DNA of 32,272 nt from an uncultured Alphaproteobacteria bacterium. Its GTDB lineage: Bacteria > Pseudomonadota > Alphaproteobacteria > UBA8366 > JADFVY01. The notes under the pieces were generated by a model, which did no database searches, was not told the origin of the DNA, and saw only the letters and a program-made list of their open reading frames with translations. The stretch spans positions 1-32,272 of the forward strand of contig CAMYNJ010000156.1 of NCBI GenBank assembly GCA_947259795.1, written 5' to 3'. This document shows positions 1,247 to 30,788 of this stretch, in pieces. A program made the translations under genes and the position numbers. The number at the start of each line of letters is the position of its first letter. The stretch's first letter is position 1.

Positions 1247-1283
1247 AACCGGGTGCGTGCCTTAGAGGTAAGGAATTTCAGAC

Positions 1284-1517
1284 ATGGCTATGGAAGCGAG
1301 CGAGATCGAACGGCTGATCAAGGAGGCCCTGCCGGACGCGGAAGTCCGGATCGAGGATCTGCGCGGTGATGGCGACCATTATTCGGCCTATGTCCGTTCC
1401 GCTTCCTTCAAGGGCAAGAATCGCGTTCAGCAGCATCAGATGGTCTATTCGGCATTGCAGGGCCGGATGGGCGGCGAACTGCACGCGCTGGCGCTGCAGA
1501 CCGCGGCGTCGGATTGA
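1284..1517 (+). CDS. bolA: BolA family protein
   Basis: A 77-residue protein spanning a whole BolA domain: MAMEASEIERLIKEALPDAEV at the N-terminus, then DHYSAYVRSASFKGKNRVQQHQ and VYSALQGRMGGELHALAL. The fold has a helix-turn-helix-like loop, and the HQ(M)VY..L motif with its conserved histidine matches the family region that helps bridge a [2Fe-2S] cluster with monothiol glutaredoxins. The start ATG follows GAGGTAAGG at a usable distance. The partner glutaredoxin gene begins 61 bases downstream, the classic BolA-Grx pairing for iron-sulfur trafficking and iron sensing. Which BolA subtype it is cannot be settled from sequence alone; it is short and lacks extensions. Confidence 0.93.
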   Translation: MAMEASEIERLIKEALPDAEVRIEDLRGDGDHYSAYVRSASFKGKNRVQQHQMVYSALQGRMGGELHALALQTAASD

Positions 1518-1578
1518 ATTTCCGCTATAGGTTAGAGACAGGCCGCGGCGCGGCCCGGCAAACAAGGATCAGAGAGAC

Positions 1579-1914
1579 ATGGATAATGTAGTTTTCGACC
1601 GTATCCGCGAGGAAATTTCGGAAAACGACGTGGTGGTCTTCATGAAGGGCACGCCCGTCTTCCCGCAGTGCGGCTTTTCCTCGGTGGTGGCGCAGGTGAT
1701 GACTGCCCTGGGCGTGAAATTCAAGGGCATCAACGTGCTGGAGGACCCGGGTATCCGTGAGGGAATCAAGAGTTTCAGCAACTGGCCGACCATCCCGCAG
1801 CTCTATGTGAAGGGCGAATTCGTCGGCGGCTGCGACATCGTGCGCGAAATGTACGAGAACGGTGAGCTGAAGCAGCTGATGAGCGAAAAGGGCGTCCAGA
1901 CCCAGGCGGCGTGA
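1579..1914 (+). CDS. grxD: Monothiol CGFS-type glutaredoxin (Grx4/GrxD)
   Basis: A 111-residue single-domain monothiol glutaredoxin. The active-site motif CGFS is at residues 31-34, preceded by VVVFMKGTPVFPQ, with the glutathione-binding features WPTIPQLYVKGEFVGGCDI near residues 70-90. Proteins of this class carry a glutathione-ligated [2Fe-2S] cluster, as a homodimer or with BolA, and deliver it to apo-proteins; they are poor general disulfide reductants. An ATG preceded by AGAGAGAC gives the standard N-terminus. It lies directly after bolA on the same strand and ends just before a strong hairpin, so bolA-grxD is probably the end of the purL transcript. Confidence 0.95.
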   Translation: MDNVVFDRIREEISENDVVVFMKGTPVFPQCGFSSVVAQVMTALGVKFKGINVLEDPGIREGIKSFSNWPTIPQLYVKGEFVGGCDIVREMYENGELKQLMSEKGVQTQAA

Positions 1915-1940
1915 CGACCGGACTAATCGCATCGAATGGA

Positions 1941-1967
1941 AAGGCGCCCCAACCGGGGCGCCTTTTT
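1941..1967. terminator. Bidirectional intrinsic terminator between grxD and the facing lipoprotein gene
   Basis: Perfect 10-base-pair stem AAGGCGCCCC (1941-1950) with GGGGCGCCTT (1955-1964) around an AACC loop. It is followed by T's on the plus strand and, read backwards, preceded by A's that become U's for minus-strand transcripts. It sits between the grxD stop at 1914 and the stop of the convergent lipoprotein gene at 1967, so it can end both transcripts. Confidence 0.88.
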
Positions 1968-6892: not shown

Positions 6893-7825
6893 ATGACCAG
6901 CCCATGGTGGTTGCTGAGCGCCGGCGCCGGCCTTGCCAGCGCACTGCTCTACGGGCTTGCTCCGGCAAGCCCGCTGGGCGTCATGATACTTCCTGTCCTG
7001 GTCTCCGTGCCTCTGTTCATGGCGGGACTGGGGTTTGGGACGCTGGCCGGCGCGGTGGCCTCGGCGGTCGCCATCGCAGGCGTGCTGGTATTCCAGGGGC
7101 CTATGGCCGGCGCGGTTTTTGCGGTCGGGTTCGCGGTTCCGGTGGCGATACTGGTCCGCCAGGCCATGCTGGCGCGAACCGACGACGGCGTGACCGAATG
7201 GTATCCGGCGGGACTGCTGGCCGCCACGCTGACGATCGTCGGACTGGGACTGGCGGTGGCGGTTACCGCGGTGATATCGTCGCTTGAAGTTCAGGAACTG
7301 TTCGACGAGCGCCTGCGTGCCTTCGCCGAGAGCTTCGCCGCCAGCGGCGGTGGAATCACCGCCGAGGATCTGCTGGCACGGATGGAGTGGACCAAACGGC
7401 TGTTACCGGGACTGACGACCAGCTTCCTGATGCTGGTTCTGTTGGCCGGCGCAGCGCTGGCCCAGGCGGCGCTGCAGAAACTGAAACGGAATCTGCGGCC
7501 CTGGCCGGATTTCGCGGGCATGGAGCTGCCGAACTGGATGGCGGTCGTCGCCGCTGTAACAATCGCCGCCGCGATGCTGCTGCCGGATCCCGCCGGGACT
7601 TATGCCGTCGCGATGTCATTTGCGGCATGCTTTGCCTTCCTGTTGCAGGGCCTGGCCGTGATCCACGCCTTCAACCGAAAGATCAGGGGTGGCACGATCC
7701 TGCTGGTGATCATCTACCTGCTGGTATTCGGGCAGATGTGGCCGGCGATGCTGGTGGTGCTGCTGGGCGCGGTGGAACAGTTCGCGGGACTGCGGCGCAG
7801 TTGGATTGAGAAAAAGGAAGAATAG
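6893..7825 (+). CDS. DUF2232 polytopic membrane protein
   Basis: A 310-residue hydrophobic protein with about eight predicted membrane segments: the first pair near residues 8-50, further segments around 55-85, 105-130, 180-200, 215-235, 240-260 and 270-300. A soluble loop (LFDERLRAFAESFAASGGGITAEDLLARMEWTKRLLPG) lies in the middle. This matches the DUF2232/YybS-type family that is regularly inserted between rpsR and rplI in alphaproteobacteria. Molecular function is not known; a permease-like or S-component-like role has been suggested by its topology but is unproven. ATG 6893 has only a weak ribosome binding site (TTAAGAGT). Confidence 0.85.
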   Translation: MTSPWWLLSAGAGLASALLYGLAPASPLGVMILPVLVSVPLFMAGLGFGTLAGAVASAVAIAGVLVFQGPMAGAVFAVGFAVPVAILVRQAMLARTDDGVTEWYPAGLLAATLTIVGLGLAVAVTAVISSLEVQELFDERLRAFAESFAASGGGITAEDLLARMEWTKRLLPGLTTSFLMLVLLAGAALAQAALQKLKRNLRPWPDFAGMELPNWMAVVAAVTIAAAMLLPDPAGTYAVAMSFAACFAFLLQGLAVIHAFNRKIRGGTILLVIIYLLVFGQMWPAMLVVLLGAVEQFAGLRRSWIEKKEE

Positions 7826-8731: not shown

Positions 8732-10249
8732 ATGACGTCACCCGCCACCGAAAATACGGTCACCCCGCTTCGCAACGACGGGGGCGACACTCCATCTTAC
8801 CGAATCCCACCCCATAACGCCGAGGTGGAGGCGGCGCTGCTGGGCGCCATCCTGACCAACGACCGGGCCCTGGAAAAGGTTTCGGAATTCCTGCAGGCCG
8901 AGCATTTCTACGAGCCGGTTCATGGCCGCATCTACGACGCTGCGCGACGGCTGGTGGAGCGCGGCCAGAAGGCCAGCCCGCAGACCCTGGCCCATTTTTT
9001 CGAGGCCGACGAGGCGCTGGCCGAGGCCGGCGGCGGGCGTTACCTGTACGAACTGGCCGCCAGCGTGATCAGCGTGGTCAATGTCGCCGATTACGGCCGC
9101 ATGATCCACGACCTCTATCTGCGCCGCCAACTGATCGGGCTGGGCGAAGAGGTGGTCAACGAGGCCTACGCGCATGACATCGACGATTCCGCCCCGGCGC
9201 AGATCGAGAAGGCGGAACAGCGGCTCTACGACCTGGCCACGATCGGCGAGACCGATCGCGGCATCGTCACCCTGAAACATGCCTCCGTCGTCGCGCTGGA
9301 AGAGGCCGAGCAGGCCTTCAAGCGCGAGGGCCATGTGGTTGGCGTGACCACGGGGCTGAAGGATCTGGACCGCCGGCTGGGCGGGCTGCATGGATCGGAC
9401 CTGCTCATCCTTGCCGGCCGGCCCTCGATGGGCAAGACGGCGCTGGCCACCAATATCGCCTTCAACGCCGCGCAGGCCCGGAAGCCGAATGACGGGGACG
9501 AACCCGCCGGCACCCACAAGGTGCTGTTCTTCTCGCTGGAAATGTCGTCCGAACAGTTGGCCGCGCGTATCCTGTCGCAGGTCTCGGGCATCCCGTCCGA
9601 CCGCGTGCGCCGCGGCGAGATCAACGCCGACGAGTTCCAGGCCTTCGCCGTTGCCAGCCAGCAGATGAGCCGGGTTTCGCTGTTCATCGACGACACGCCG
9701 GCGATCACGGTGTCGACCATGCGCACCCGCGCGCGGCGGCTGAAACGCCAGGGCGGGCTGGACATGATCGTGGTCGACTATCTGCAGCTTCTGCAGGGAA
9801 CGCCCGGGCGCCGTGCGGAAAACCGGGTGCAGGAAGTCTCGGAAATCACCCGCGGGCTGAAGCAGCTGGCCAAGGAACTGGAGGTGCCGGTCCTCGCATT
9901 GTCGCAGCTCAGCCGCCAGGTCGAAAACCGCGAAGACAAGCGCCCGCAACTGGCCGACTTGCGCGAATCCGGCTCGATCGAACAGGACGCCGACGTCGTC
10001 ATGTTCATCTACCGTGAGCAATATTACCTGGAAAAAGGCGAGCCCGTACTGGGCATCGATGAAAAGGGCGAAAAGTTCGAGGATCGCCACACCCGCTGGC
10101 AGAGCCGCATGGCCGAGGTCACCAACACCGCCAGCGTCATCATCGCTAAGCAGCGCCACGGCCCGGTCGGCACGATAGACCTGTTCTTCGAAGGCGCGCT
10201 GACCCGGTTCGGCGACCTCGACCGGCAGCATAGCGACGACGGGTTTTGA
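8732..10249 (+). CDS. dnaB: Replicative DNA helicase DnaB
   Basis: A 505-residue hexameric helicase that unwinds DNA at the replication fork. The N-terminal primase-interacting domain begins RIPPHNAEVEAALLGAIL. The RecA-like domain has Walker A GRPSMGKTALA with Lys 235, FFSLEMSSEQLAARI, the Walker B segment DMIVVDYLQLLQG, and LSQLSRQVENREDKRPQLAD with DLRESGSIEQDADVVMF. No intein interrupts it. I chose the ATG at 8732 over an in-frame TTG at 8726; neither has a good free Shine-Dalgarno because a hairpin occupies 8697-8720. The stop overlaps the alr start (TTGA). Position after rplI is conserved in alphaproteobacteria. Confidence 0.97.
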   Translation: MTSPATENTVTPLRNDGGDTPSYRIPPHNAEVEAALLGAILTNDRALEKVSEFLQAEHFYEPVHGRIYDAARRLVERGQKASPQTLAHFFEADEALAEAGGGRYLYELAASVISVVNVADYGRMIHDLYLRRQLIGLGEEVVNEAYAHDIDDSAPAQIEKAEQRLYDLATIGETDRGIVTLKHASVVALEEAEQAFKREGHVVGVTTGLKDLDRRLGGLHGSDLLILAGRPSMGKTALATNIAFNAAQARKPNDGDEPAGTHKVLFFSLEMSSEQLAARILSQVSGIPSDRVRRGEINADEFQAFAVASQQMSRVSLFIDDTPAITVSTMRTRARRLKRQGGLDMIVVDYLQLLQGTPGRRAENRVQEVSEITRGLKQLAKELEVPVLALSQLSRQVENREDKRPQLADLRESGSIEQDADVVMFIYREQYYLEKGEPVLGIDEKGEKFEDRHTRWQSRMAEVTNTASVIIAKQRHGPVGTIDLFFEGALTRFGDLDRQHSDDGF

Positions 10250-25246: not shown

Positions 25247-25575
25247 CCGAGATGTTCCGGCTTTCCGATTACCGCAAGAAGAAATACCGCCAGCGGATTT
25301 TTTTCGACCGCCGGGAACTGCGCCAGCTTATGGATCTCTACAGCCGCCGGGTCGCCATGGGCGAATGGAAGGATTACGCCATCGACCAATATGGCCCGAT
25401 TTGCGTCTTTTCCATATTCCGCCATTCCTTCGACCAGCCGCTGTTCGCCGTAGCCAAGCGCGCGGCGGGCAAGGGATGCGACTATGCGGTCTACAGCGGT
25501 CGCCAGCAGTTGAAGCGCGGTCGCTCCATGGCCGAGGCGCTTGCCGTCCTGGAAAAGCAGATCAGGCTGGTGTAA
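25243..25575 (+). CDS. DUF2794 domain-containing protein
   Basis: A 110-residue protein starting MTEMFRLSDYRKKKYRQRIFF, then DRRELRQLMDLYSRRVAMGEWKDYAIDQYGPICVFSIFRHSFDQPLFAVAK, and an end with VYSGRQQLKRGRSMAEALAVLEKQ. This is the DUF2794 family, which is essentially alphaproteobacterial and of unknown function. The frame stays open far upstream, but homologous sequence begins only at ATG 25243, which has GAGGACC upstream. The basic N-terminus may contact nucleic acid (inference only). It lies ahead of gcrA on the same strand, 245 bases apart. Confidence 0.88.
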   Translation: MTEMFRLSDYRKKKYRQRIFFDRRELRQLMDLYSRRVAMGEWKDYAIDQYGPICVFSIFRHSFDQPLFAVAKRAAGKGCDYAVYSGRQQLKRGRSMAEALAVLEKQIRLV

Positions 25576-25605
25576 GGAAATTTTCCACGCCTCCATGAAG
25601 ACCCG

Positions 25606-25623
25606 CGTGCGCTTAAGCGCACG
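25606..25623 (+). promoter_or_regulatory. Perfect 18-base palindrome between the DUF2794 gene and gcrA
   Basis: CGTGCGCTTAAGCGCACG is a perfect inverted repeat with no spacer, 31 bases after the DUF2794 stop and about 80 bases upstream of the proposed gcrA promoter. It could fold into a weak hairpin at the end of the DUF2794 transcript or be a protein-binding site. It has no T run after it and so is a poor intrinsic terminator. Confidence 0.5.
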
Positions 25624-25674
25624 GATTCGGGCCCGCAGAGCCGGTTTCGGGCAAAAATGTCACTATATTACCCC

Positions 25675-25713
25675 GATTCGGCCCTTGAACCTCCCTGATT
25701 TACAGTATATTGT
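25675..25713 (+). promoter_or_regulatory. Putative gcrA promoter with an upstream GANTC methylation site
   Basis: A -35-like TTGAAC (25685-25690) and a -10-like TATTGT (25708-25713) are 17 bases apart. A GATTC (25675-25679), the CcrM recognition sequence GANTC, lies just before the -35, and a second GATTC is at 25624-25628. In Caulobacter, GcrA acts at promoters with methylated GANTC, so self-regulation is possible. The stretch 25576-25820 holds no supported gene. Confidence 0.5.
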
Positions 25714-25820
25714 GTGGATAGGAGCCGTTGCCACTATATGTATGTATATGGACGACAGGCTGCGGGCCGCGAACCACCGCCCCCGCGAAAATGTGACCAA
25801 CAGATATTGAGAGGACGGTT

Positions 25821-26195
25821 ATGGAATGGACTGAAGAGCGGGTTGCCAGGCTGAAAGCGCTGTGGGGCGAAGGCCGCACGGCAAGCCAGATTGCGGTGAT
25901 ACTTGGAGACGTTACCCGCAACGCGGTCATCGGCAAGGCGCACCGGCTCGGCCTCAAGGGCCGCCCGTCGCCAATCCGTAAAGAAAAGGTGGCGACGCCG
26001 AAACCGGCCCGCCGGCCCGTGGCCCAGACTTCGCGCCCGGTTCGGGTCAGCGACCGCCAGTGCCACTGGCCGATCGGTCACCCGCGGGAACCCGGTTTCC
26101 ACTTCTGCGGCGCGCCCGCGATCGACGACAAGCCCTACTGCGAGAAACATTGCAACGTCGCCTACCGGCGCAGCGAAAGCTCCGCCGCGGCCTGA
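25821..26195 (+). CDS. gcrA: GcrA cell-cycle regulator
   Basis: A 124-residue GcrA. The N-terminal DNA-binding domain is MEWTEERVARLKALWGEGRT, then ASQIAVILGDVTRNAVIGKA and HRLGLKGR. A Lys/Pro/Arg linker leads to the C-terminal sigma-70-interacting domain with CHWPIGHP...FHFCGAP...KPYCEKHC (Cys 81, 96, 107, 111, a plausible metal site). Caulobacter GcrA is 173 residues, so the linker here is short. GcrA activates promoters carrying methylated GANTC sites. GAGAGGACGG precedes the ATG. Presence of this protein is a strong alphaproteobacterial marker. Confidence 0.95.
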   Translation: MEWTEERVARLKALWGEGRTASQIAVILGDVTRNAVIGKAHRLGLKGRPSPIRKEKVATPKPARRPVAQTSRPVRVSDRQCHWPIGHPREPGFHFCGAPAIDDKPYCEKHCNVAYRRSESSAAA

Positions 26196-26217
26196 CATCG
26201 GCGACACGGAAACGAAG

Positions 26218-26249
26218 ACGGCGGCCCCGCGAAGGTGCCGCCGTTTCTT
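26218..26249 (+). terminator. Intrinsic terminator after gcrA
   Basis: Stem ACGGCGGC (26218-26225) pairs with GCCGCCGT (26237-26244) around an 11-base loop and is followed by TTCTT. It lies 22 bases after the gcrA stop and before the convergent cupredoxin gene, whose stop is at 26280. Confidence 0.75.
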
Positions 26250-26279
26250 GTTGCGGTATCGTTGCCGCATTGCCGCCCC

Positions 26280-26756
26280 CTATTCGATACGGATCGTTCC
26301 TTCCATGCCGAAGAGTTCGTGCAGCGGCTGATCGCAAATCAGCCTGAATTCACCGGCTTCGAGAGGCACGAAGGTCAGTGTCTTGGTCTCGCCGGCTTCC
26401 AGCGCAATGGACCGCAGCAGCGGCATGCCGACCTCGCCAACGGCGAAAACCAACCTCTTTGCCGCAATCGCGTCGAAGAAGGCTGGAGCGACGAAATTAT
26501 GGGCGCCGCCGCCCTCGTTCGACAGGGTCAGTTCGTAGGGCTGATCAACCCTGAAGGTTAGACTGGCCGGCGAAAAACCGAACGCGTCCAGCACCACGGT
26601 CCGCGCTTCGGCTTTCGACCAGTCCACGGCCGCGACGATCCTGCCGAGTTCGGCCATGCGGTCTCCCGTCGGCTCGACAAATCCGTCCTCGCCCGCGCCG
26701 CAAGCGGCAAGAAACAAATTGCCGGCCAACAACAGCGGTAGTCCGGCTTTCCTCAT
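26280..26756 (-). CDS. Cupredoxin-domain lipoprotein
   Basis: A 158-residue secreted protein with a lipobox at Cys 19 (LFLAACGAG) and a cupredoxin domain from about residue 52. A full type-1 copper ligand set is visible: His 86 (GGGAHNFVAPAF), Cys 141, His 146 and Met 151 (ICDQPLHELFGMEG). The spacing C-x4-H-x4-M is typical of plastocyanin- or nitrosocyanin-like blue copper sites. A GGGGGAGG ribosome binding site is present. It could carry electrons or bind copper in the periplasm; the partner is unknown. It is the last of a file of minus-strand small exported proteins. Confidence 0.85.
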   Translation of the reverse strand: MRKAGLPLLLAGNLFLAACGAGEDGFVEPTGDRMAELGRIVAAVDWSKAEARTVVLDAFGFSPASLTFRVDQPYELTLSNEGGGAHNFVAPAFFDAIAAKRLVFAVGEVGMPLLRSIALEAGETKTLTFVPLEAGEFRLICDQPLHELFGMEGTIRIE

Positions 26757-26806
26757 TGCAGCCTCCCCCTGGAGCCTGGTCCGAAATTTACGCAGCCCTG
26801 TGGGCG

Positions 26807-27520
26807 TCAGTTGATGATCTGCCAGGAACCGTCCGGCTGGCGGCAGGCCGTGCCGTAGGTCTGCTGCGACCGCCCGCCGATCGTGCTCATGGTCTGGTAT
26901 TCGCGGCAGTAACGTCCCTGGCTGTCCTGGTAGGCCGGCGAAGGCGTCACCTGGTACTGGCCGCCGCCGCTGCGATCCTGCCAGGTGATCGGCTGGTTCG
27001 GCGGCGCATGCTCCAGGATCTGGCCGACACAGTTCTGGTCGACATCGTCCATTGAACGGCCGATATGGCCGCCGATCAGGGCGCCGATGATGGTGCCGCC
27101 GATCACCGCCGCCGTCCTGCCGTGGCCGCTGCCGACCTGATAGCCGGCGACGCCGCCGGCCACCGCGCCAAGCGCCGTACCGAGATCCTGGCGGTAACAG
27201 CTGTTGCGGTAGACGCCATAGGGCGGCTGGTAGGATCGACCCTTGCCGTACCGGCCATGGCTATACCAGGGCGGCGCGCCATAGCTCCAGCCGACCGGCC
27301 GGTAACCCTTCTTGGCGAGTCCCGGGGGCACCCCGCCTTTTTTGGCGAGTCCCGGCGGCATCCCGCCATGGCCGGGCGGCACACCGGCCTGCGCGGGCGG
27401 GGGATAGACGGGCCCGGGCTGCTGATACACGGGCGGCGGGCTGCTTCGCGCGGTCTGCCCTACATGGCAGCCGGCGAGGACCGTGCCCAGCACGATCATC
27501 GAAACCGCAATTCTGATCAT
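26807..27520 (-). CDS. Glycine-zipper lipoprotein (17-kDa antigen type) with PPGLAKKG repeats
   Basis: A 237-residue protein with signal ending LAGC (Cys 18). The mature part has a Pro/Gly-rich region with a tandem G(M/V)PPGLAKKG repeat (53-72) and an aromatic stretch (SYGAPPWYSHGRYG). It is followed by a glycine-zipper hydrophobic segment (about 113-155, GTALGAVAGGVAGYQVGSG, GGTIIGALIGGHIG) and a C-terminal domain QYQVTPSPAYQDSQGRYCREYQT ending CRQPDGSWQIIN, as in rickettsial 17-kDa antigen relatives. The ATG at 27520 is preferred over the adjacent GTG at 27523 because GGGAG is 8 bases before the ATG. It is probably outer-membrane associated. Confidence 0.85.
   Translation of the reverse strand: MIRIAVSMIVLGTVLAGCHVGQTARSSPPPVYQQPGPVYPPPAQAGVPPGHGGMPPGLAKKGGVPPGLAKKGYRPVGWSYGAPPWYSHGRYGKGRSYQPPYGVYRNSCYRQDLGTALGAVAGGVAGYQVGSGHGRTAAVIGGTIIGALIGGHIGRSMDDVDQNCVGQILEHAPPNQPITWQDRSGGGQYQVTPSPAYQDSQGRYCREYQTMSTIGGRSQQTYGTACRQPDGSWQIIN
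27305..27364 (-). repeat. Two tandem 30-base repeats encoding PPGLAKKG
   Basis: Adjacent units encode GMPPGLAKKG and GVPPGLAKKG in the glycine-zipper lipoprotein (residues 53-72), with a partial third unit (GVPPGHG) just N-terminal. The unit has few base differences, indicating recent duplication. Confidence 0.8.
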
Positions 27521-27549
27521 CACGCTATCTCCCGGTATGTTTTACCCGG

Positions 27550-28029
27550 TCAGCCGTTATCCTCGCGCCAGTCCTCGATGAAATCCTTCATCAAATCCGC
27601 CATGGTGCGGGCGACATCGCGGCCGTGGGTCTGGGGGCCCGAGCCGAGGATCGTTCCGTTCTCCCAGATAATGACCTTCGCGTGCAGATCGCGCTTGTCG
27701 CCGGTCAGCCGCACCTTGTCAAAGCGATAGACCGCGATATCCGCCGAAGTGAAACAGATCGCCGGCTGTGCCAGCGTCGCCACGCGCACCTGGAAGACAT
27801 AGATGGATCCGTCGAAGCGGATCGGAATGGCCTTCGCCTCGCGCCCCATGGCGTTGGTCAGCTGCCCTTCGCTGACGCCGCATTTCACGCTGTCGGCGTC
27901 GAAGGGCTCGAAGGTGAGCGCCATCCTTTTAACGTCTCTCAACTTGTTGTCGATCGTCTGTGAGCCCGCCAACGAGGGCGCCACCAGCAGGGCCGCCAGG
28001 ACCAGAAAGGCGGGAATCCGGGATTTCAT
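27550..28029 (-). CDS. Exported protein of unknown family, tandem paralogue A
   Basis: A 159-residue protein with a cleavable signal (MKSRIPAFLVLAALLVAP, then SLAGSQ). I start it at ATG 28029, where the signal begins; GGAG lies 11 bases upstream. The mature protein begins TIDNKLRDVKRMALTFEPFD and has Cys 50 (KCGVSEGQL) and Cys 92 (ICFTSADIAVYRF) 42 residues apart, a possible disulfide. It then has IIWENGTIL, THGRDVARTM and a DWREDNG end. Its sister at 28118 shares all these landmarks. I cannot name the family; some predicted strands suggest a small beta-rich fold. It follows the sister gene on the minus strand by 88 bases. Confidence 0.7.
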   Translation of the reverse strand: MKSRIPAFLVLAALLVAPSLAGSQTIDNKLRDVKRMALTFEPFDADSVKCGVSEGQLTNAMGREAKAIPIRFDGSIYVFQVRVATLAQPAICFTSADIAVYRFDKVRLTGDKRDLHAKVIIWENGTILGSGPQTHGRDVARTMADLMKDFIEDWREDNG

Positions 28030-28117
28030 TGCTTGTTCGTCTCCATCAAATTCGGGCCGGCGCATCGGCGTCGCGCCCATCGGTTCGCCACAACATATCG
28101 TTGTTGAAGCGCGGGGG

Positions 28118-28636
28118 CTACCCCGCCCTTTGCCGGGCGTTATCCTGGCTCCAATCCGCAGCCAAACTCTGCACCAGCTGCGTCACCACCGCAGTGACTT
28201 CCTTGCCATGCTGGTTGCGCGCCGAAAAAATGACGATGCCGTTGCTCCATAGTATGGCACGCGCCCGGTTGCCCTTCGGATAGGCCGGCAGCGCCAATTT
28301 TCCGACATAGCGGACCTCGATATCGATCGAGGAAAAGCAGTCCGATGCCCTCGGCAGGGAACTGATCCGCAGATAGAGCGCATAGTCATAGCCGCCCAGC
28401 GTGAAACCCGCCCCTTCCGCACCCTCTGTTACGGCTTCAATCAGCTTCGACTCACCGATGCCGCAATCCCGCGCATCCGAATCCAGCGGTTCGATCGCGA
28501 TCTCGAGATTGTTGACGTCCCGCAGGGTGCCGTTGAGGGTTTGCGCGGATACGCCGCCTGCGGCGACGAGCACCAAACCGAAAATCGCAACCACGCAAGC
28601 TGTTTTCAATAAATTCATGAGCAAGGATCTGTCCAT
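28118..28636 (-). CDS. Exported protein of unknown family, tandem paralogue B
   Basis: A 172-residue protein with a signal peptide or anchor (LLKTACVVAIFGLVLVAAGG, then VSAQ). It may start at 28636 or at the internal ATG 28618; neither has a strong ribosome binding site. The mature part TLNGTLRDVNNLEIAIEPLD matches paralogue A (TIDNKLRDVKRMALTFEPFD). Cys 58 and Cys 100 are again 42 apart, and ILWSNGIVIF, QHGKEVTAV and DWSQDNA mirror A. I do not recognise the family. The 194-base gap upstream (28637-28830) shows no gene or clear promoter. Confidence 0.7.
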   Translation of the reverse strand: MDRSLLMNLLKTACVVAIFGLVLVAAGGVSAQTLNGTLRDVNNLEIAIEPLDSDARDCGIGESKLIEAVTEGAEGAGFTLGGYDYALYLRISSLPRASDCFSSIDIEVRYVGKLALPAYPKGNRARAILWSNGIVIFSARNQHGKEVTAVVTQLVQSLAADWSQDNARQRAG

Positions 28637-28830
28637 TTTCTTGTTACCGGCAGCCTGTAACGGACCCCATCCCGGCCGACCGCACGCGGGTCAACCGCCC
28701 GCCAGCCCAATGTCGCACACAGATGTTAATCCTTGGTGACTGCCGCTATGGATTCGATGAGATTTTTTGCGGGAACGACGCCCGGTCCCGGCACGGGTCA
28801 TGCTGACGTGGCGGGGTAAAGCCGGCGGGG

Positions 28831-29163
28831 TCAGCGTGCGGCGGATTTTCCGGCCGCCGCACCCGAAAAAAGGAAATACAGGAACAGCGGGAAACCCGCG
28901 GAAACTCCAACGAGACAGGTGCCAAGAACGACAAGCCCCGCCGCGTGGCGCGGCAAGCGGCCGATAAGCGCCAGCAGCAGCACGGCGGCGCTGACGATCA
29001 CGTCGAGCGCGAAAAACGAGGCGATGCGGTTGTCGAACGCGGCCAGGACGAAGCCCGCCGGATCGACGCCGTTCTCAATCAACCAGGGCACGAAAGCCGC
29101 ATAGGGGATCACCACTCCAGCCAAGGCGAGCAGCAGGAACAAGCGCGGATTGACGGGCTTCAT
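28831..29163 (-). CDS. DUF2834 membrane protein
   Basis: A 110-residue protein with about three transmembrane segments (8-29, 48-70, 76-98). The sequence IPYAAFVPWLIENGVD, then FDNRIASFFALDVIVSAAVL, is typical of DUF2834 family proteins, where a conserved SFF.lDv..s stretch begins the second helix. AGGAGAG precedes the ATG by 7 bases. Function is unknown. It is 71 bases downstream of guaA on the same strand. Confidence 0.8.
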   Translation of the reverse strand: MKPVNPRLFLLLALAGVVIPYAAFVPWLIENGVDPAGFVLAAFDNRIASFFALDVIVSAAVLLLALIGRLPRHAAGLVVLGTCLVGVSAGFPLFLYFLFSGAAAGKSAAR

Positions 29164-29180
29164 TCGATCTCTCCTTTTGG

Positions 29181-29222
29181 CGGGATGAGAAACGGGGGGT
29201 TAACGGGACGAGAAACGGGGGG
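29181..29222 (+). repeat. Two 23-base-period direct repeats between guaA and the DUF2834 gene
   Basis: CGGGATGAGAAACGGGGGG (29181-29199) and CGGGACGAGAAACGGGGGG (29204-29222) differ by one base and are 23 bases apart. On the minus strand they read as CCCCCCGTTTCTCxTCCCG. They occupy most of the short spacer and cannot form a long hairpin, so they are not a normal terminator. Confidence 0.8.
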
Positions 29223-29234
29223 CGTATTTCCCCG

Positions 29235-30788
29235 CTATTCCCACTCGATGGTGCCGGGGGGTTTCGAGGTCACGTCGTAGACGACCCGGTTGATGCCGCG
29301 CACCTCGTTGATGATGCGGGTGCCGGTGCGGGCCAGGAATTCGTGATCGAAGGGATAGGAATCGGCGGTCATGCCGTCGGTGGAGGTGACGGCGCGGAGC
29401 GCGCAGACATGGTCGTAGGTGCGGGCGTCGCCCATCACGCCGACGGTGCGCACCGGCAGCAATACCGCGAAGGCCTGCCAGATCGCGTCATAGAGCCCGG
29501 CATTGTGGATTTCCTCGCGGAAAATGGCATCCGCGCGGCGCAGGATATCGAGCTTTTCGCGGGTTATGGCGCCGGGAATGCGGATCGCCAGGCCCGGGCC
29601 GGGGAACGGATGGCGGCCGACCAGCGAGTCCGGCATGCCCAGTTCGCGCCCCAAGTCGCGGACCTCGTCCTTGAATAGCTCGCGCAACGGTTCGACCAGC
29701 TTCAACTTCATGCGCTCCGGCAGGCCGCCGACATTATGGTGCGACTTGATGGTGACGCTGGGCCCGCCGATCGCCGAGACCGACTCGATGACGTCCGGAT
29801 AGAGCGTGCCCTGGGCCAGGAAGCCGGCGCCGCCAACCTTGTGGGCCTCCTCGTCGAACACATCGATGAACAGGCCGCCGATTATTTTCCGTTTCTCTTC
29901 CGGGTCGTCGACGCCTTCCAGTTTGCCGAGAAAAAGATCCTCGGCGTCGCGGTGAATCAGCGGGATGTTGTAGTGGTCGCCGAACAGCCGCACGACCTCT
30001 TCCGCCTCGCCCTGGCGCATCAGCCCGTGGTCGACGAAGATGCAGGTCAGCCGCTCGCCGATCGCCTCATGGATCAGCACGGCGGCGACGGAAGAATCGA
30101 CGCCGCCCGACAGGCCGCAAACGACCTTGCCCTTCTCGCCCACCCGTTCGCGGATGCGCGCGATCGCCTGGTCCTTGAAGGCCGCCATGGTCCAGTCGCC
30201 GGAACAGCCGCATATCAGTTTCGCGAAATTGCTCAAAAGCTTCGCGCCATGCGGGGTATGCACGACCTCGAGGTGGAACTGCACGGCATAGAAGCGGCGT
30301 TCGTCGTCGGCGATGGCGGCATAGGGCGCGCCGTCGCTGGTGGCGACCACGCGAAAGCCTTCCGGGATACGCACGATGCGGTCGCCGTGGCTCATCCAGA
30401 CCTGTTCGCGGTCGCCCTTGCGCCACACGCCCTCGAACAGGCCGCAATCGTCGACGACATCGACGAAGGCGCGGCCGAATTCCTGGTGGTCGGATATTTG
30501 CACCTCACCGCCCAGCTGCGCGCACATGGTCTGCTCGCCATAGCAGATGCCCAGCACCGGCAATCCCATCTCGAAGACGCAATCGGGGGCGCGCGGGCTG
30601 GTTACCTCGGTCACGCTGGCCGGGCCGCCGGACAGGATGATTCCCTTCGGCCCGAAGGCTTCTATCTTCGCCCGGTCGAGACTGTTGTAGGGGTGGATTT
30701 CGCTGTAGATCCCGGCCTCGCGCACCCGGCGCGCGATCAACTGGGTCACCTGGCTGCCGAAGTCGATAATAAGGATGCGGTCCGTCAT
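29235..30788 (-). CDS. guaA: GMP synthase (glutamine-hydrolysing)
   Basis: A 517-residue enzyme converting XMP to GMP. The class I glutamine amidotransferase domain has Cys 82 (GICYGEQ), His 172 and Glu 174. The ATP-PPase has the P-loop SGGVDS (227-232), and the dimerisation domain ends [15 protein letters not shown]. Two residues are unusual: FHLEVVHTP where FHPEVVHTP is normal, and GEQ where GMQ is common; the catalytic triad itself is kept. I prefer [13 protein letters not shown] at 30788 over an ATG three codons upstream because the family starts there, though neither has a strong ribosome binding site. The final step of purine nucleotide synthesis matches purL and purF in the window. Confidence 0.96.

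Follow-up and report, generated by a model that had tools for sequence, protein, structure and literature searches.

Tandem exported paralogues with a conserved cysteine pair and a predicted LptE/PelC-type fold in an uncultured alphaproteobacterium

P1 and P2, encoded by adjacent genes of an uncultured alphaproteobacterium, are paralogues whose sequence family is absent from the Pfam and NCBIfam catalogues and is predicted, with fair support from structural models, to adopt the fold of LptE, PelC, CsgG and TraT. The genes lie in a stretch of 32,272 nucleotides (the window), positions 1 to 32,272 of contig CAMYNJ010000156.1 in assembly GCA_947259795.1. The reading that best accounts for the data, to which we assign a probability of about 0.4, is that P1 and P2 are soluble, unlipidated, disulfide-stapled periplasmic modules for binding or scaffolding, built on an outer-membrane accessory fold and working with a 17-kDa partner. 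The analysis places an unnamed gene pair in a family that is now defined and has a predicted structure. For annotation, it is a case in which what looked from sequence like a new domain has, according to the models, a known fold, and it supplies an example, open to testing, in which an outer-membrane accessory fold is employed without a lipid anchor.

A pair of diverged paralogues with predicted signal peptides

Both open reading frames described in the initial annotation were found on the minus strand: the upstream paralogue P2 (172 residues) at positions 28118–28636, and the downstream paralogue P1 (176 residues as called) at 27550–28080. In P2, a signal peptide (28544–28636, minus strand; cleavage at VSA/QT, judged by eye) precedes a mature domain that would begin at about Q32 (28543). 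For P1, the ATG at 28029 (M18) is more likely to be the true start than that at 28080, a preference that follows from the position of the signal peptide as judged by eye. From M18, the P1 signal peptide would span 27961–28029 (minus strand), with cleavage near AGS/QT, also placed by eye, and the mature protein would begin at about Q41 (27960). Inspection of the cleavage regions showed no lipobox cysteine in either protein; the P2 site, being without a cysteine, does not form a lipobox. Both P1 and P2 are predicted to be exported by ordinary, non-lipoprotein signal peptides, in agreement with the earlier view of them as exported proteins.

The pair had been described as tandem paralogues of low identity, and the alignments bear this out. 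BLASTP aligned P1 and P2 without gaps over 149 residues, 45 of which are identical (30%, E = 2e-30). The Smith-Waterman score of the two mature sequences was 224, compared with a mean of 26.7 (sd 4.4, maximum 47) when one of them was shuffled; it was not equalled once in 1000 such trials. The motif T-x4-LRDV...EP-x-D-x-D is present in both proteins, as are the paired blocks WSNG/WENG, HGKEV/HGRDV and DWSQDN/DWREDN that had been picked out beforehand.

Orthologues of P2 in two other genomes, G002 and G003, are 59 and 60% identical over the whole length and 61 and 66% identical in the mature part; the P1 orthologue in G002 is 82% identical in the mature part. The ratio dN/dS was 0.12 for P1 (window versus G002) and 0.23 and 0.21 for P2 (window versus G002 and G003, respectively), figures that are rough since dS between the orthologues is high. 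These values indicate that both are real genes under purifying selection. They bear on the alternative that one or both genes are dispensable, decaying duplicates, for which it can be said that G005, a single-contig genome from the same bacterial family as the window, has one copy and that two drafts from that family (G001 and G004) show none. The substitution pattern largely rules this out, and the reading frames of P1 and P2 are undamaged in both the window and G002, so that decay retains only a very slight probability.

A family outside the catalogues that appears thinly spread over the class

No match to P1 or P2 was found among the 24,736 models of Pfam and the 18,950 of NCBIfam at E values up to 10, which upholds the proposal that they fall outside catalogued families; a confident profile match to a known family had been set beforehand as the result that would speak against it, and none was found. 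Sequence searches of the PDB gave no match for P1 and three weak matches for P2 (best E 0.022, to dynein-docking proteins), and a 19-row family profile gave three against the same sequences (best E 0.25); both sets were taken as chance. When 19 members, including the window pair, were each scanned against Pfam, NCBIfam and PHROGs, the sole strong domain was PG_binding_1 (E 3.2e-16), fused to the C-terminus of the family member in locus L029 (positions 1264–1941, minus strand). Matches to endolysin, SleB and similar entries among the 19 members probably come from this peptidoglycan-binding tail. Other candidates were taken as chance: DUF7436 in Pfam (E 0.0081, one of the 19), NadA in NCBIfam (E 0.063, two of the 19), a PHROGs spanin for P2 (E 0.22), a PHROGs integrase in one member (E 0.0056), and an NCBIfam heptose epimerase for L047 (E 4e-4, far under the cut-off). 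A search of the literature found nothing on the family, which is no proof of absence. A plasmid-borne gene was also considered and rejected, as the 72,556 plasmid records searched by tblastn with P2 and a relative, L022, contained no match.

The genome of the window (164 contigs, 66% complete) contains two family copies. Within the same bacterial family, a member was found in five of seven genomes and none in the drafts G001 and G004. Both copies occur in the window genome and in G002, one copy each in G005 and G006, and P2 only in G003, where the contig stops 158 bases past P2. In a tree, P1 branches outside a group formed by P2 and the single copies of G005 and G006 (93/92), a topology that tentatively suggests an older duplication with later loss. 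Across the class Alphaproteobacteria, a seven-row profile matched at least 12 of 385 genomes, and the 19-row profile at least 22 of 385, at E ≤ 0.01; these counts are lower bounds, since at most 9 or 10 candidates were scored per genome. Two of the 22 matches, the porin-like L051 and the short frame L052, are probably false. A sample of 398 genomes from the phylum returned the window genome and at least two weak matches, both from the same class. The family thus sampled appears to be spread thinly over the class.

A conserved pair of cysteines, and a subfamily with a pair at other sites

To describe conservation we used a 24-row alignment consisting of seven sequences from the bacterial family of the window, 12 found with the seven-row profile and five found with the 19-row profile. 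Matched sequences outside this alignment are L032/L055 (one gene, four cysteines), L047 (a short frame, three cysteines), L049 and L050 (a second subfamily, see below), L051 and L052 (judged false), and L062 and L063 (matched later). In all 24 aligned members the mature domain has exactly two cysteines, in the same two columns, although the profile that finds distant members rewards cysteines and some bias toward cysteine-bearing matches is therefore built in. These two columns are the only invariant ones; a leucine, a tryptophan and a histidine (H143 in P2) are nearly so.

In P2 the pair consists of Cys58 (codon 28463–28465, minus strand), which lies between the first strand and the first long helix of the model, and Cys100 (28337–28339, minus strand), at the start of the third strand; the equivalents in P1 are Cys67 (27880–27882, minus strand) and Cys109 (27754–27756, minus strand). 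The initial annotation had read a conserved pair at a fixed spacing of 42 residues as a likely disulfide. The spacing is indeed 42 in both P1 and P2, but not in the wider family, where insertions alter it; the two columns nevertheless stay put, and the pair keeps the appearance of a disulfide throughout the alignment. An internal disulfide probably forms in P1 and P2. No CxxC, the active-site motif of Dsb and thioredoxin proteins, is present in either mature protein, the only two cysteines being those 42 residues apart.

Outside the 24-row set, L047, L055 and L062 have both conserved cysteines plus one or two extra, and L063 retains the second of the pair only. L062 is a distant relative from genome G364 in which the two additional cysteines lie nearer the C-terminus, and it could possibly carry two disulfides.

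Two weak matches to the 19-row profile, L049 and L050, lack both conserved cysteines, and neither has a Pfam match above chance. A search seeded with L050 gave 10 hits, spread over seven of the 372 class genomes covered. In each of the nine aligned rows of this second subfamily there are again exactly two cysteines, both at other sites, which the alignment places ahead of the first strand and where the last helix ends, at the C-terminus; the alignment excludes L091, which is without the C-terminal cysteine. In L085–L090 and L092–L094, one cysteine precedes the first strand and the other stands in an AC pair of residues at the C-terminus. Comparison of the two subfamily alignments gave an hhalign probability of 94.9% (E 4e-8, 127 columns), with the qualification that L049 and L050 came from the first profile, so that the two alignments are not wholly independent. 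The absence of one pair, accompanied by a second pair at other sites, is the pattern expected of a structural disulfide. With their pairs in different positions, the two subfamilies would offer a clean natural case of one structural disulfide being given up and another taking its place.

Structural models match the LptE/PelC/CsgG/TraT fold

AlphaFold2 models, made with six sequences, had mean pLDDT values of 87.6 for P2 and 89.2 for P1. The general order of elements is the same in both, i.e., a strand, a short helix, a long helix, antiparallel strands and a long C-terminal helix, with six strands listed in the model of P2 and four in that of P1. The top Foldseek matches of both models in the PDB were to LptE: for P2, 8h1s_B (E 3.8e-5) and 5tse (E 4.9e-5), followed by PelC 5t11 (E 6.4e-4); for P1, 5tse (E 5.5e-4) and 8h1s_B (E 1.9e-3), followed by PelC (E 2.2e-3). 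PqiC (8q2c) matched P2 at E 5e-3. VIA-align gave Z scores for P2 of 10.8 (curli complex), 10.6 (CsgG), 10.1 (PelC, 114 residues), 9.7 (TraT), 9.6 (FlgT, 3w1e), 8.8 (TolB) and 8.8 (LptE, 8h1r_B). For P1 the scores were 9.5 (PelC, 118 residues), 9.2 (curli complex), 9.0 (TraT), 9.0–9.5 (CsgG), 8.2 (LptE, 8h1r_B) and 8.1 (FlgT, 3w1e). XCC0632 of DUF330 (2iqi) matched at 7.9 (P2) and 7.0 (P1). Ribosome hibernation factors stood in the same lists at 8.2 (P2) and 7.8 (P1), and the margin over unrelated proteins is thus modest. TM-scores normalised to the query were also moderate, at 0.39–0.51 for the five best P2 rows and 0.34–0.47 for the five best P1 rows; PelC 5t0z_B reached 0.54 with P1, and 8h1s_B 0.43 with P2 and 0.34 with P1. 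The rmsd of the best Foldseek rows was 4.8–9.6.

The models of P1 and P2 match the same solved structures, those of the LptE/PelC/CsgG/TraT fold, and a new fold was rejected on that basis. Structures that fail to superpose had been named beforehand as a second result against the proposal; in the general order of their elements and in the solved structures that they match, the two models agree. The suggestion that the pair represents a candidate new domain accordingly fails in the structural sense, and what it describes is a sequence family of a known fold, thinly spread over the class. At the level of profiles, homology to LptE or DUF4410 was not detectable: the family alignment scored an hhalign probability of 0.2% against 30 LptE sequences and 0.4% against DUF4410 (seven sequences). 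The control comparison of LptE with DUF4410 was likewise low (0.25%), and the two halves of the LptE set scored 100% against each other.

LptE (PF04390) differs from P1 and P2, which have no lipobox, no LptE profile match in Pfam at E up to 10, and a conserved internal cysteine pair; LptE was also absent among the 12 Pfam families listed for the 19 members. DUF4410 (PF14366) has no profile match to P1 or P2 and appeared for one of the 19 at E 0.094. PelC (5t11, 5t0z, 9h80) has the fold in common over most of the domain. PelC is an outer-membrane lipoprotein; unlike it, P1 and P2 are without a lipobox, and no pel gene was present among the window neighbours scanned (17-kDa antigen, cupredoxin, DUF2834, GcrA and guaA). 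For FlgT (3w1e, residues 91–267) and the N-terminal part of TolB (1c5k, residues 36–161) the core fold is common, the matched regions being parts of larger proteins, and neither is matched by P1 or P2 in Pfam. The core is also common to TraT and CsgG, the curli complex included (Z 9.0–10.8). CsgG is larger than P1 and P2, lipidated, and has membrane-spanning parts. TraT too is larger and lipidated, with membrane-spanning parts that P1 and P2 lack (TraT as described in PMC11733297).

A common fold with the LptE/PelC group does not show what P1 and P2 do. It does raise the alternative that they are parts of a transport or secretion machine of the envelope, handling lipid, LPS or polysaccharide as PqiC, LptE or PelC do, and that they may assemble into a hetero-oligomeric ring. 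The top fold matches are those very proteins, and paralogues encoded next to each other could assemble into a mixed ring: PMC10897342 describes PelC as a dodecameric ring and PqiC as an octamer, counts PelC and LptE structures among the structural homologues of PqiC, and names 5tse, an Acinetobacter lipoprotein, as LptE. Large transporter-like genes of RND type, recognised by eye, are also present in the regions of three distant relatives (L072, L074 and L075), though at least 1.6 kb away. However, PqiC is, unlike P1 and P2, a lipoprotein, whose octamer depends on lipid and which is a monomer without it (PMC10897342), and soluble TraT is monomeric once its lipidated first helix is removed (PMC11733297). 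These observations make a ring of unlipidated P1 and P2 doubtful. In addition, the four window neighbours scanned with Pfam are a 17-kDa antigen, a cupredoxin, DUF2834 and GcrA. We consider a transport machine unlikely, and return to the soluble binding or scaffold modules of our preferred reading.

The pair is followed by genes for two putative lipoproteins

Twenty-six bases after P1 lies a gene for a 17-kDa-antigen-like glycine-zipper protein (26807–27523, minus strand) with a lipobox, LAGC, judged by eye, and Pfam matches over the cut-off to 17kDa_Anti_2 (E 5e-7) and Rick_17kDa_Anti (E 3e-6). Fifty bases beyond it is a gene for a cupredoxin-like protein (26280–26756, minus strand), also with a lipobox by eye (LAAC) and with matches over the cut-off to Cupredoxin_1 (E 7e-7) and Copper-bind (E 2e-5). 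We infer that P2, P1, the 17-kDa gene and the cupredoxin gene form an apparent four-gene operon of exported proteins. A scan of 25500–29400 found one promoter-like site where 0.9 were expected and three terminator-like sites where 4.5 were expected, counts that are uninformative on the operon. Upstream of the pair is guaA, and between guaA and the pair lies a gene for a DUF2834 membrane protein (28831–29163, minus strand; Pfam E 5e-19) that had no tblastn match in the 23 related loci tested.

The order paralogue, 17-kDa gene, cupredoxin gene and convergent gcrA recurs in L017, from G005, which represents another genus of the bacterial family of the window; the homologues there are 67% (17-kDa) and 45% (cupredoxin) identical. 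By tblastn, L017 was the only one of 23 loci with relatives of the 17-kDa and cupredoxin genes, and four of these loci (L015, L016, L083 and L084) break off at the family member or close to it.

A cupredoxin lipoprotein in the apparent operon of two genera, together with the invariant or nearly invariant C58, C100 and H143 of P2, would fit a periplasmic copper or redox system in which the cysteines and the histidine bind metal. Against such a system, the two cysteines, separated by 42 residues, form no CxxC motif, and the 18 regions outside the bacterial family of the window contain no cupredoxin relative (tblastn, E up to 1e-3), yet the aligned members there keep their cysteines. The related subfamily that lacks both cysteines and has two elsewhere is also more readily explained by a structural staple than by metal binding. 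A role in copper or redox chemistry is, in our judgement, quite unlikely.

A proposed role at the periplasmic face of the outer membrane

In the reading that we prefer, P1 and P2 would be exported by their signal peptides and stay soluble in the periplasm, without a lipid anchor, where they would adopt the fold of the outer-membrane accessory proteins LptE, PelC, PqiC, TraT, CsgG and the N-domain of TolB. A disulfide between Cys58 and Cys100 in P2, and between Cys67 and Cys109 in P1, would connect the tail of the first-strand region with the beginning of the third strand. The proteins would serve as small, non-catalytic binding or scaffold modules, either on the outer membrane at its periplasmic side or at the peptidoglycan, and P1 and P2 may act as a pair, alongside the 17-kDa glycine-zipper lipoprotein encoded with them, which we favour as the likeliest partner. 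The main pointers to a binding or scaffold role are this lipoprotein and the peptidoglycan-binding tail of L029; the tail would place the L029 member at the peptidoglycan.

A bolder form of this proposal, which we regard as rather unlikely, is that P1 and P2 form an obligate hetero-oligomer, a soluble and stapled counterpart of PelC- or TraT-type assemblies that docks on the 17-kDa lipoprotein, and that the family has swapped one structural disulfide for another at a different site, the pair being internal in one subfamily and linking the N- and C-termini in the other. If true, P1, P2 and the 17-kDa protein would constitute a new small envelope complex.

Distant relatives mostly lack a conserved neighbourhood

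Genes were clustered by BLAST over 22 loci, i.e., the 18 regions outside the bacterial family of the window plus L083, L084, L017 and the window itself. Clusters present in at least three of the 22 were the family itself, dksA (four), and PII, an ammonium transporter, RND-type genes, flgI and guaA (three each). Gene picking for this purpose was crude (it missed the L078 member, left the L074 member alone in a cluster and took wrong-strand frames in L017), and the main neighbourhood question was also put by tblastn. For the most part, distant relatives do not share a conserved neighbourhood.

One local pattern is that of a four-member clade (L073, L079, L080 and L082; 97/95), in which each member lies directly beside dksA, as identified with Pfam. 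In three of the four flgI is nearby, and L082 lies between flgH and dksA-fliX-flgI. This arrangement, and the match of FlgT 3w1e to both models, would be consistent with accessories of the flagellar basal body resembling FlgT. Set against this are the absence of FlgI from the genome assembly of the window (66% complete), and the lack, in the BLAST clustering of picked genes, of any flgI-cluster member around the window pair or in 15 of the 18 regions of distant relatives; L080, moreover, has dksA with no flgI in the stretch covered. A flagellar function is very unlikely for the window pair, whereas the four-member clade may have a flagellar or dksA-linked role. Periplasmic binding or scaffolding remains our preferred reading for P1 and P2.

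Two further, weak groupings were observed. Genes for PII and an ammonium transporter occur in L068 (4126–5779), L069 (3140–4949) and L070 (3765–4157 and 11570–12499); they are adjacent in L068 and L069, which are from one genus, and the Pfam names are from L068 only. In L066 (1950–6841) and L075 (689–4393), from different bacterial families, a trmFO/GidA-like gene and two squalene/phytoene-synthase-like genes surround the member, with Pfam names from L075 only. None of the dksA/flgI, PII and squalene-synthase patterns gives a function for P1 and P2, as they are not seen around the window pair.

Closer to the window, guaA homologues stand beside the member in G002, G003 and G006. In the G006 locus, L084, a piece of 122 bases from the 3′ end of guaA is repeated with 98% identity (7117–7237 and 9401–9522), and two putative lipoprotein genes, judged by eye and with no Pfam match, lie between the copies. 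The repeat adjoins the upstream side of the family member and has the appearance of a scar left by insertion or tandem exchange.
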